The position numbers and the translations under genes are program-made. The notes below the pieces were generated by a model, which ran no database searches, had not been told where the DNA came from, and worked only from the letters and a program-made list of their open reading frames with translations. A stretch of DNA of 64,000 nt from assembly GCF_001305575.3 (NCBI RefSeq), contig NZ_CP012373.2, forward strand, positions 3,920,799 through 3,984,798, in the 5' to 3' direction. Below, one piece after another: positions 47,304 through 50,508 of the stretch (within the stretch, counting starts at the first letter, position 1; each line of letters starts with the position of its first letter). This DNA comes from Beggiatoa leptomitoformis. GTDB lineage: Bacteria; Pseudomonadota; Gammaproteobacteria; Beggiatoales; Beggiatoaceae.

Positions 47304-47670
47304 AACTATTCACTAATTGGGTTTTATGAGAAATAACCGAAGGGTTGAGCCTAAAACAGCGTGATTCAGTATAACGGATAGTCAGGAAAGGTAAATAAGC
47401 AGTACAAAGAAAAAAGGAGGGGACACGCGAACACTTGCTTGTCACCCTACCCTAAAGATTCAGGAGCTATATCACTCGCAGAATAACTATTCAAAAACCT
47501 TGCCATTTATTTGCTCCGCGATGAATTTTAAAAAAATAAATATAAATCAATTTATTATGTATTAACTTTGTCAGTTGAAACCAAAGCGGGTTAAAAAATC
47601 ATTCGACAAATCTATAAACATGTATATAATTACACTATGTGAATAAACACATAAATAGAGACCACTTACT
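47304..47670. promoter_or_regulatory. tonB-lexA divergent intergenic region
   Basis: This 367-bp gap holds the divergent promoters of tonB and lexA. The only defined site I see is the LexA box at 47620-47635. The segment 47410-47470 (AAAAGGAGGGG...) has no clear ORF. Confidence 0.45.
47620..47635. promoter_or_regulatory. Candidate SOS (LexA) box
   Basis: ATGTATATAATTACAC matches the gammaproteobacterial CTGT-N8-ACAG pattern with an AT-rich centre but with A for the first C and C for the last G. It lies 36 bp before the lexA start, where autoregulation is expected. Confidence 0.6.
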
Positions 47671-48276
47671 ATGGAAGAACTAACTTCTCGTCAAAGACAA
47701 ATCTGGGAATTTATTGTACAACAAATAGATACTACCAGAATGCCACCAACTCGTGCAGAAATTACCCGCGCTTTCGGGTTTAATTCCCCCAACTCTGCCG
47801 AACAACATTTACAAGCCCTTGCAAAAAAAGGTTATATAGAATTATTAGCAGGCTCATCAAGAGGTATTCGTTTACTTAAGGGGATTGGTTTACCCGTTAT
47901 TGGTAGAGTTGCAGCGGGACAACCCATCTTAGCAGAACAACATGTAGAAGGACGTTATCAACTAGACGAAACCCTATTTCACCCGCGTGCTGATTACCTT
48001 TTGCGTGTGCAAGGTCTGAGTATGCGCGACATAGGCATTTTAGATGGTGACTTTTTAGCAGTACACCGTACCGAGAAAGCCAATAATGGGCAAATTGTTG
48101 TTGCTCGCGTGGATGGTAATGAAGTAACTGTTAAACGGTTTCAACAACAAGACCATGAAGTTCAACTACTACCAGAAAATCCAGATTTTCAACCCATCAT
48201 CGTTGATTTACGAACGCAACACCTAGCCATTGAAGGATTAGGCGTAGGCGTGATTCGAAGCAATAAAATTTTGTAA
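47671..48276 (+). CDS. lexA: LexA repressor
   Basis: 201 residues, typical. Winged helix in residues 1-70 ([39 protein letters not shown]). Cleavage site Ala82-Gly83 in [13 protein letters not shown], catalytic Ser117 (GLSMRDIGI) and Lys155 (VTVKRF). The repressor of the SOS regulon self-cleaves when RecA is activated. A LexA box precedes it. The following genes start 92 bp downstream and are on the same strand. Confidence 0.96.
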
Positions 48277-48368
48277 AAACTCAAGATTAACGCTGTATTT
48301 GATTATGTTAGCGGCATAGTCAAGACACAACAATATTTTTTCCCTCTTTAGCAAGCGAGGTTAGCATC

Positions 48369-48761
48369 ATGTTGTCTGTTCAAACCCTTCACAACCGCAC
48401 CACAGCATGGGCAAAACGGATTTTATCCGCTGTCCTACCCACTCCTATCCTGCCTATTGAACTTGAAACGCCTGACTTGCCAGAAGTCACGCTTGCGACA
48501 CCTGTCGACATTAACAGCGATGACATTTGTTTTAATACCGTCAAACAAGCCATTTTAAGCCGTCACTGCCTGCCAATCCCTAACCAACTGAAACAAAATT
48601 ATAATTTAACCTACGCAACCGCAAAACACTATTTAAATCGTTTAGTAGAAACAGGTCATCTACTTCGCGAAACAAACGGACGCTACATCCTTAACCGCGA
48701 TAACCCCGCAAACCAAGTCGGTTTTAACCAACTCGCACAACGCCTAAAACGGATGAATTAA
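48369..48761 (+). CDS. Hypothetical protein with C-terminal winged-helix-like module
   Basis: 130 residues, start supported by GAGG at 48358-48361. The C-terminal part CFNTVKQAILSRHCLPIPNQ, then LTYATAKHYLNRLVETGHLL and NGRYIL has the pattern of a small winged helix. The same pattern closes the protein at 49071 (VTEAILTGDCSPTLSQLQKR, TPVAKDYLSALAEQGHLVRK). No family name is known to me. It lies directly after lexA and before two membrane-protein genes, probably in one transcript. Confidence 0.55.
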   Translation: MLSVQTLHNRTTAWAKRILSAVLPTPILPIELETPDLPEVTLATPVDINSDDICFNTVKQAILSRHCLPIPNQLKQNYNLTYATAKHYLNRLVETGHLLRETNGRYILNRDNPANQVGFNQLAQRLKRMN

Positions 48762-48801
48762 CAAGGAAAATCATTTAAAGAAGCGCAACACAGGAGGTTT
48801 T

Positions 48802-49053
48802 ATGGGAATCACGCTAACCGATGCACACGGCACGACAGCACAACAACGCTTTAAAAAACGACGGGTTAAGACAGAAAAAGCCCTACAAAAAATTCGCCAA
48901 CGTCCCAGTAGTCTCAGCTTATTTGTTAAATATTTCTTTATTCCACTGATATTACTAATGTTCTGGCTGTTTCTTAAAGTTGACATCCGCTTAAATGACA
49001 CTCACGAAGTCGGACAACGTTTATACACCTTAGCTGCTTTTTTAAGCCAATAA
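48802..49053 (+). CDS. Small single-pass membrane protein of unknown function
   Basis: 83 residues. A very strong ribosome site (AGGAGG, 48792-48797) precedes the ATG. The first 40 residues are basic (QQRFKKRRVKTEKALQKIRQR), then one membrane helix (FVKYFFIPLILLMFWLFL) and a short outer tail. By the positive-inside rule the basic half is cytoplasmic. It ends 17 bp before the next gene. Confidence 0.6.
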   Translation: MGITLTDAHGTTAQQRFKKRRVKTEKALQKIRQRPSSLSLFVKYFFIPLILLMFWLFLKVDIRLNDTHEVGQRLYTLAAFLSQ

Positions 49054-49070
49054 AGCAGTCAGGGGGAATG

Positions 49071-50234
49071 ATGAACCTAATACACCTGCGCCAAAATACA
49101 CTGCTGTTTTCTGCCTTATTTGTCGCTATTGGCATGGCATGTAATGCCATTTTCTACTGGCATCTTGCCAGCGACGCGCTATCTAGCGTGATTTATGTGA
49201 TTTTAGGACTCAGCTTCGACGGCTTCAAAATTCTCTTATTACCGCTGGCTTTTGTATTCTTTGTCGTTTTACAACGTCCCTTTATGGCATTTGCCAGCGT
49301 GACGATTTGGCTTTGTCTAACCGTTATTTCCCTAATAGCGGCCTATGGCTTTTTTACCACCGTACAAGCCCAAGCCGAAAAACAAAATTTACAAGAAAGC
49401 CCGCAATATCAATCTTTACAACAATCGCTTACCAATATCAATGCACAACTAGATAAGCTCGCCAGCTATGCAAGCATTGATGTAGTCGGCATTCAACAAA
49501 AACTTGCACAAAACCAACAACCACGATTACAACAACTACAACAAGAAATGTCCGCGTATGCAGAACCCGACTGCACCCCCAAACGCGATAAAAATGGGAG
49601 CAGTTTTAAAAGCCGAGCAGTTGAGTATTGTAACCAACTCAAAGCAATAGAGGCAGAAATGCAACCCTATCTCGCACAAATAGAAAACTATAATCAATAC
49701 CGCGCCCTTATGACTAATCGGGAAAGATTACTCAATCAACTGGCTACTTTTAACCAAGCAGAACATCTTGTAGAAATAGTCAATCCCACGTTTATTGCTA
49801 TAGGTAAACAAATCAATATGGAAGGTGATGCAGTAAAACGGGCAATCCTTACTTTTACCGCTATTGCAACGGAAGTATTAGGTACATTTGCGGCGTTAGT
49901 CGTTGCCATTTTGTCCATTGGCAACAAGATAAACGACAAAAAACGCAACGCATATAAAGTAAAAATTGATGAATCTGAAGAAAACAATGCAACGGATGCA
50001 ACAGAACCAACAAATCGACTTGGGCGTTACGATACAGGCATCCGCACAGGCATGGATAACCGTTTTAAAGAAGTGACTGAAGCAATTTTAACGGGTGATT
50101 GCTCGCCTACCCTGTCACAACTGCAAAAACGTTTCAGCATGGGAACACCCGTTGCTAAAGATTATTTATCCGCATTAGCCGAACAAGGTCATCTAGTCCG
50201 TAAAGAAAACGGACAATACAAATTAGCTGAATAA
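49071..50234 (+). CDS. Membrane protein with coiled coil and C-terminal winged-helix-like module
   Basis: 387 residues from ATG 49071; ATG 49068 is too close to the GGGGGA at 49062-49067. Three N-terminal membrane helices (about 10-32, 38-68, 72-98), a coiled-coil and Gln-rich stretch of about 140 residues, a fourth helix (ILTFTAIATEVLGTFAALVV, 264-290), and a 55-residue cytoplasmic end that matches the last half of the 130-residue protein at 48369. Such a build could tether a DNA- or protein-binding domain to the membrane. No homologue is known to me. Confidence 0.6.
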   Translation: MNLIHLRQNTLLFSALFVAIGMACNAIFYWHLASDALSSVIYVILGLSFDGFKILLLPLAFVFFVVLQRPFMAFASVTIWLCLTVISLIAAYGFFTTVQAQAEKQNLQESPQYQSLQQSLTNINAQLDKLASYASIDVVGIQQKLAQNQQPRLQQLQQEMSAYAEPDCTPKRDKNGSSFKSRAVEYCNQLKAIEAEMQPYLAQIENYNQYRALMTNRERLLNQLATFNQAEHLVEIVNPTFIAIGKQINMEGDAVKRAILTFTAIATEVLGTFAALVVAILSIGNKINDKKRNAYKVKIDESEENNATDATEPTNRLGRYDTGIRTGMDNRFKEVTEAILTGDCSPTLSQLQKRFSMGTPVAKDYLSALAEQGHLVRKENGQYKLAE

Positions 50235-50255: not shown

Positions 50256-50293
50256 GCACCTTTTCTTGTTTGTGGGAAAAGGTGCTTTTTTTT
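50256..50293 (+). terminator. Rho-independent terminator
   Basis: GCACCTTTTC (50256-50265) pairs with GAAAAGGTGC (50276-50285), followed by eight T. It ends the three-gene unit after lexA. Confidence 0.92.
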
Positions 50294-50336: not shown

Positions 50337-50508
50337 TTATAGCTAACGCACTTTAAAATGATTATTGTAGGGTGGAATGGGCGCAAGCCGTATTCCACAA
50401 CAGTGCAAGCTTTCTGCATAAACTCAGCTATTTTTGGCGTTTTATGGTGGAATACGCTACGCTATTCCACCCTACATTAAGCTGCTTTTTAAGTTGCGTT
50501 AGCTATAA
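50337..50508. repeat. 172-bp palindromic repeat element
   Basis: The outer arms TTATAGCTAACGCA (50337-50350) and TGCGTTAGCTATAA (50495-50508) are perfect inverted repeats. An inner pair, TGTAGGGTGGAAT (50366-50378) and ATTCCACCCTACA (50464-50476), is also perfect. A third pair, GTATTCCAC / GTGGAATAC, lies within. It has no ORF and occupies most of the 354-bp gap between the terminator at 50256 and the receptor gene. Confidence 0.75.

Follow-up and report, generated by a model that had tools for sequence, protein, structure and literature searches.

What do the three uncharacterised genes that follow lexA in Beggiatoa leptomitoformis encode, and does their place behind the gene of the SOS repressor mean that they answer to DNA damage? 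The genes, here called uA, uB, and uC, lie on the same strand as lexA (Table 1) in a window of 64,000 nucleotides, by which we mean the whole stretch of DNA analysed, taken from a 4.27-Mb single-contig genome.

Table 1. Positions (window coordinates) of the features of the lexA-uA-uB-uC locus
Feature	Position	Strand	Basis
Promoter of lexA-uA-uB-uC, TCGACA, 16 nt, TATAAT	47603..47630	+	11 of 12 consensus bases; kept in sister species
Predicted SOS box 1, ATGTATATAATTACAC, over the -10	47620..47635		TGT-N8-ACA; kept in both species
Predicted SOS box 2, ATGTGAATAAACACAT, 17 bp after box 1	47637..47652		Palindrome kept in both species
lexA, SOS repressor	47671..48276	+	TIGR00498, E 7e-71
Leader hairpin, TTGATTATG-TTAGCGG-CATAGTCAA	48299..48323	+	Loop kept, stems differ yet pair, in three uA leaders
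uA, 130-aa soluble protein, winged helix at residues 55-108	48369..48761	+	ORF, profile
uB, 83-aa basic single-pass membrane protein	48802..49053	+	ORF, hydropathy
uC, 388 aa	49068..50234 (start 49068 or 49071)	+	ORF, hydropathy, model
uC winged-helix module	50043..50231	+	Pairwise match to uA, profile, predicted structure
Intrinsic terminator of the operon	50256..50285	+	13-pair stem, then T run

Gene arrangement and conservation

The gaps between lexA, uA, uB, and uC measure 92, 40, and 14 bases, respectively. A scan of the locus found a single good promoter, ahead of lexA, and a single strong terminator, at 50256, while the gap between lexA and uA contained no promoter-like site. An initial annotation had proposed an operon from tight spacing, strong ribosome sites, and one terminator; the spacing, the terminator, and the clear ribosome sites before uB (AGGAGG) and uC (GGGGG) agree with it, but the site before uA is weaker. 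The predicted features support the view that lexA, uA, uB, and uC form one operon.

In comparison with the sister species, the dN values of uA, uB, and uC are 0.26, 0.39, and 0.15, synonymous sites are close to saturated, and the protein identities are 67%, 57%, and 79%, respectively; the first 100 residues of uC, which comprise its three-helix membrane block, are almost identical. The substitution pattern indicates that purifying selection acts on each of the genes, which argues that they are real genes. The earlier expectation that they would co-occur in other genomes holds for the sister species, where the trio is syntenic, but the exact uA-uB-uC trio was found in two species of one genus only. 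The sister genome carries, in addition, a second uA-uB-uC copy without lexA, which shows about 99% identity over the stretches that align and is broken by a 100-N scaffold gap; further upstream of uA, the sequence of this lexA-less copy has no blastn match to the lexA copy.

The leader of uA contains a possible RNA control element, namely a hairpin that recurs in the three uA leaders (window 48299-48323, L044, and L043) with stems of 10, 5, and 6 bp around an invariant TTAGCGG loop. This hairpin was noticed after the fact and in three sequences; stems of at least 5 bp around a 7-nt loop occur at only about 0.9% of window positions, 6 of 104 distinct TTAGCGG sites at all loci have a stem of at least 4 bp, and the folding energy of the uA leader is ordinary. 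Elsewhere, TGTTAGCGGCAT was considered as a repeated operator and rejected, there being no excess of it in the window. Just past the operon terminator (window 50367-50475) lie GTAGGGTGGAAT-type repeats in opposite orientation; repeats of this type are commoner in the window than in shuffles.

Predicted SOS boxes at the operon and its relatives

In both species, the lexA promoter contains a pair of TGT-N8-ACA boxes at a distance of 17 bp, of which the first lies over the -10. A conserved box of the lexA-box form is also present before recA in both species. We trained a position matrix on the lexA and recA boxes only (five training sites) and applied it to held-out loci, where the score is the best within 300 bp upstream. 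The two boxes of the window, which were themselves in the training set, reach 18-20 bits, and no other site in the 64 kb scores high (next best 10). Among the held-out loci, scores were as follows: (i) 17.4 for the lexA-less second copy, in which the promoter layout is as at lexA, with two boxes directly before uA; (ii) 19.2 for the related operon of G015 (putatively the MAG Beggiatoa sp. SZUA-411), which again has two boxes 17 bp apart; (iii) 17.2 for a transglycosylase gene of G030 (putatively a Thiomargarita MAG); and (iv) 14.7 for a uA-like gene of G015, where the box precedes an uncertain 93-codon ORF. Such scores are reached by 0.1 to 0.5% of 4,082 background windows, positives included, and the maximum in 22 control regions upstream of relatives without the winged helix was 7.3.

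Boxes are thus present at 4/4 winged-helix loci versus 0/22 controls, a comparison that covers few independent operons, of which one has the scaffold gap and one is split between contigs. The 14-mer TGTATATAATTACA of box 1 also stands before the G015 operon, and the exact form CTGT-N8-ACAG was found three times in the scanned loci, always before the G015 or G030 operon. The positions of the boxes relative to transcription starts are those that we infer. SOS control of lexA-uA-uB-uC is well supported by these predictions, and the SOS link first suggested by the neighbourhood of lexA has gained predicted LexA boxes before the operon, the lexA-less copy, and the related operons. Because of the 4/4 versus 0/22 distribution, we predict that SOS boxes go with the winged-helix class in three genera and not with the whole core family of uC.

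The winged-helix module shared by uA and uC

The matching C-terminal segments of uA and uC, pointed out in the initial annotation, share 43% identity (23/54 aa; E 5e-13). A profile of seven such modules compared with solved structures yielded winged-helix proteins, with IclR, LexA, and GntR types among the matches listed, and the predicted structure has the element order H-H-H-E-E (pLDDT 72-80). The related module of a G015 protein, predicted separately, has an identical order of elements. The guess of a winged-helix-like module is therefore upheld by profile search and structure prediction; the alternative, that the two modules differ in fold, finds no backing, for the sequences are alike enough to suggest that uA has a winged helix like that of uC.

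The predicted winged helix of uC superposes on FtsK-gamma, SelB, and IclR at Z 8.3-8.6, all tied, and FtsK-gamma bound to KOPS DNA is among these tied best structural matches. In sequence, the module is less similar to FtsK-gamma (hhalign probability 46%) than to the LexA domain, and we did not adopt kinship with either, as each gives profile similarity only. FtsK resembles uC in having membrane helices first and a winged helix last; uC differs, however, in that it is without a motor domain (no ATP-driven motor was found in the Pfam and NCBIfam scans) and in that other winged helices match equally well. FtsK_gamma (PF09397) is not above cut-off in six Beggiatoaceae genomes (G000, G001, G015, G030, G004, and G026) and is clear in two genomes from other families of the class. 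Two Beggiatoaceae genomes also encode a distant copy of the module behind an N-terminal region that by eye looks like a MUG113/T5orf172-type domain (L117:6407-6961 and L054:1477-1983).

Membrane topology of uC and its reading as a regulator

The hydropathy of uC peaks near residues 11-34, 50-68, 72-90, and 266-288, and its predicted layout comprises three membrane helices, an antiparallel coiled-coil hairpin at about 100-235, which the model predicts with confidence at about 110-225, a fourth helix at 266-288, and the winged helix, which the model places at 326-388. The membrane helices are poorly modelled, at low confidence (three-sequence alignment), and the four-helix topology rests on hydropathy. 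Since a strongly positive stretch follows the fourth helix, the winged helix would, by the positive-inside rule, lie on the cytoplasmic face. No hydrophobic membrane segment was detected in uA by hydropathy, and uB has one, at residues 40-62. Hydropathy thus agrees with the original picture of a soluble uA, a uC with four membrane helices and a coiled-coil middle, and a small, basic, single-pass protein between them.

Scans of uA, uB, and uC against Pfam, NCBIfam, PHROGs, and PADLOC gave nothing above cut-off, and the uC core matched no family in Pfam, NCBIfam, or PHROG. Weak formin, MotA, AbiEi, and SMC-like matches look like coiled-coil or generic winged-helix noise and were set aside, as was a fold search with the uC coiled coil, which returned generic helical hairpins.

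The main rival in mechanism to the envelope checkpoint proposed below is a ToxR/CadC-like role, in which uC would be a membrane-bound one-component transcription regulator whose coiled coil senses the envelope and whose winged helix controls promoters; uA would be its soluble partner or antagonist, and SOS would only set the amount of uC. Such a role would suit a winged helix that resembles regulator DNA-binding domains, a periplasmic domain with a confidently predicted hairpin, and a soluble twin in the same operon, and ToxR and CadC, like uC, have a periplasmic domain and a winged helix tethered to the inner membrane within a single polypeptide. Their winged helix, however, is N-terminal, of the OmpR/PhoB type, and followed by one helix, whereas that of uC is C-terminal after four helices. 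Assignment of uC to the ToxR/CadC family therefore fails, since neither the location of the winged helix in the chain nor its type agrees, and no match to Trans_reg_C was found in uC at E up to 5. The wider reading as a regulator is set back in that no target site was found and in that relatives of uC swap the tail for zinc ribbons or lose it, as in a DNA anchor; we consider it unlikely, if still worth keeping in view.

Relatives of uC, tail exchange, and mobile elements

Matches to the uC core, some of them weak, were present in 14/42 genomes of the order, and in a class-wide sample of 369 genomes, the sole match of the core profile was the genome of the window itself. By these searches, the core is seen in this bacterial family only, on chromosomes and on mobile elements. 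Plasmid searches gave one weak Microbulbifer match with uC and none with uA; viral-contig scans with uC, two paralogues, the G015 winged-helix/SRAP-like protein, and uA returned no relatives, nor did phage records contain a relative of uC.

The core is constant while its tail varies among (i) a winged helix, in the window and the sister species; (ii) a winged helix plus an SRAP-like domain in one frame, in G030; (iii) a zinc ribbon; and (iv) a short tail. Core relatives with zinc-ribbon tails lie on small linear plasmids and integrated elements, adjoining replication genes and integrases. The relatives on mobile elements are without boxes and without the winged helix, which suggests that a role in the damage response need not be inherent in the core.

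This distribution raises the alternative that uC descends from a membrane protein of a mobile element and still is a DNA anchor of plasmid or phage type (in partition, DNA transfer, or exclusion) that came to lie behind lexA by chance domestication and has no part in a checkpoint. The zinc-ribbon relatives speak for such an origin, but the winged-helix members have predicted SOS boxes in three genera and are under strong sequence constraint, and members linked to a transglycosylase are chromosomal in several genera; on balance, we regard this origin as quite improbable.

Several of these elements have features of their own. The sister species has two small replicons, L027 (G001:C3, 9.0 kb) and L028 (G001:C1, 11.4 kb), on which a zinc-ribbon uC relative is encoded along with a ResT/TelK telomere resolvase and a D5-type primase-helicase, with a LexA-type box before each primase-helicase gene; in L028, a 28-nt perfect inverted repeat pairs position 157 with the far end, as in hairpin-ended linear plasmids. 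Inovirus (filamentous-phage) prophage genes adjoin elements with zinc-ribbon uC relatives at L041:11594-17256 (Zot, coat B, and replication initiation factor) and L029:14866-17025 (replication initiation factor). Four further zinc-ribbon relatives (L106:5352-6899, L108:6008-7756, L109:5647-7458, and L110:7494-9044) contain a GG-V--DGLVHAHADEAVLN-like stretch that resembles, by eye, the C-terminal motif of phage tape-measure proteins.

Transglycosylase and SRAP-like partners, and the place of uB

The uC-type gene is immediately preceded, in G015, G030, and several other cases, by a gene for a membrane-anchored SLT lytic transglycosylase (identified as SLT in G030 and L037 by its resemblance in sequence), which in the related operons occupies the position of uB. 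The gene order in G015 is transglycosylase, membrane protein, and winged-helix/SRAP-like protein. In two other genera, an SRAP-like domain is fused to the winged helix, and in G030 both are in one frame with the membrane protein. SRAP is an SOS-associated repair domain (YedK/HMCES). With known SRAP proteins, the domain of the relatives shares an MCGG N-terminus in some members and ARxES, YMEKD, and IHxRWP-like motifs; it differs in that active-site residues are partly changed and in that it is joined to a winged helix and, once, to a membrane protein. Its match to PF02586 (E 0.015; 15.3 bits) is below the 27.1 cut-off, and the hhalign probabilities are 72% and 53%, which is a weak match. The N-terminal cysteine is found as MCGG in G014 and L139, replaced by an internal CGG or CHG in G015 and G030, and missing in L141 and L142. 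Given the weak match and the cysteine that some members lack, we call the domain SRAP-like only. No such domain was found in the genome of the window.

On the Methylophaga thalassica plasmid NZ_CP143310.1 (L139:2162-4441), a free-standing SRAP-like relative is encoded behind lexA and the gene for DNA polymerase IV, in what appears to be one operon. This hypothetical protein, which Pfam does not name, has relatives on Pseudomonas, Nitrosomonas, and other Methylophaga plasmids. A lexA/DNA polymerase IV setting is known for SRAP genes (PMC3765255).

Position and topology would fit uB as a shortened transglycosylase; we rejected this candidate, as its match to the anchor of the G015 enzyme is not significant (BLASTP E 0.29), and a Pfam scan found no SLT domain in uB. 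Small membrane proteins encoded next to lexA are SOS division inhibitors in other bacteria, and two of them, ChiZ and YneA, touch the cell wall through LysM (PMC6851548). As a small, basic, bitopic protein encoded inside a lexA operon, uB has the features of these lexA-linked inhibitors, and in a genome with no SulA above cut-off, it might by itself be the effector, an SOS-induced division inhibitor like SosA or YneA to which uA and uC are accessory. We judge this very unlikely, since uB shows the lowest conservation among the three proteins (57%), was found in the genus Beggiatoa only, and has neither a LysM domain nor other similarity (Pfam, NCBIfam, and PHROGs).

A proposed SOS-induced envelope module

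That lexA adjoins these genes by coincidence and that the operon lies outside SOS control agrees with the restriction of the exact operon to one genus but is very unlikely, given that predicted boxes immediately precede both the lexA-less copy and the related operons in two further genera (4/4 versus 0/22).

We tentatively favour, at somewhat under even chances, a LexA-repressed operon in which uA, uB, and uC constitute an SOS-induced envelope module that probably serves as a DNA-damage checkpoint at the envelope. LexA cleavage triggered by RecA would lead to production of uC, of soluble uA with the same winged helix, and of small single-pass uB together. uC would extend its coiled-coil hairpin into the periplasm and hold its winged helix at the cytoplasmic face of the inner membrane, where this domain would dock on DNA. 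The rest of uC, in the membrane and periplasm, would act on the machinery of the cell wall or septum; in the related operons, it is encoded together with a peptidoglycan-cutting transglycosylase. For its part, uA would compete for the DNA sites of the uC winged helix or pair with it there. The output of the module could be transcription, DNA tethering, or a block of division. The sequences support the operon layout, the SOS boxes, the topology, the winged-helix fold, and the transglycosylase and SRAP-like partners; what we infer is the DNA binding, the action on the wall or on division, and the part played by uA.

In the SOS response, division is controlled by unrelated small inhibitors that differ by lineage. 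Since membrane inhibitors encoded beside lexA are known elsewhere, and since no SulA was found above cut-off in either Beggiatoa genome, a division role of the operon is reasonable by analogy. SosA, YneA, and ChiZ (and SulA in function) are comparable in that membrane protein genes lie beside lexA, with LexA control predicted here; the present locus differs from them in having a four-helix winged-helix protein and its soluble twin and in lacking LysM or sequence similarity.

Beyond this checkpoint, an undescribed SOS pathway is conceivable, though rather unlikely, in which a transmembrane coiled-coil adaptor would join a cytoplasmic DNA-recognising head to a periplasmic peptidoglycan hydrolase; in Beggiatoa, the hydrolase would have become an inert anchor, uB, and the head would have been duplicated as uA. 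The head would be the winged helix, plus the SRAP-like lesion-binding domain in two genera, and would tether DNA, whether damaged or specific, at the inner membrane. We know of no other case in which a membrane-held winged helix, a transglycosylase, and an SRAP-like domain are combined under LexA boxes. If such a pathway exists, a DNA damage signal would go straight to the cell wall.

To our knowledge, division arrest after DNA damage has no description in large filamentous bacteria such as Beggiatoa. The operon is a concrete candidate for SOS division control in Beggiatoa, and the predicted boxes in three genera make the idea directly testable.
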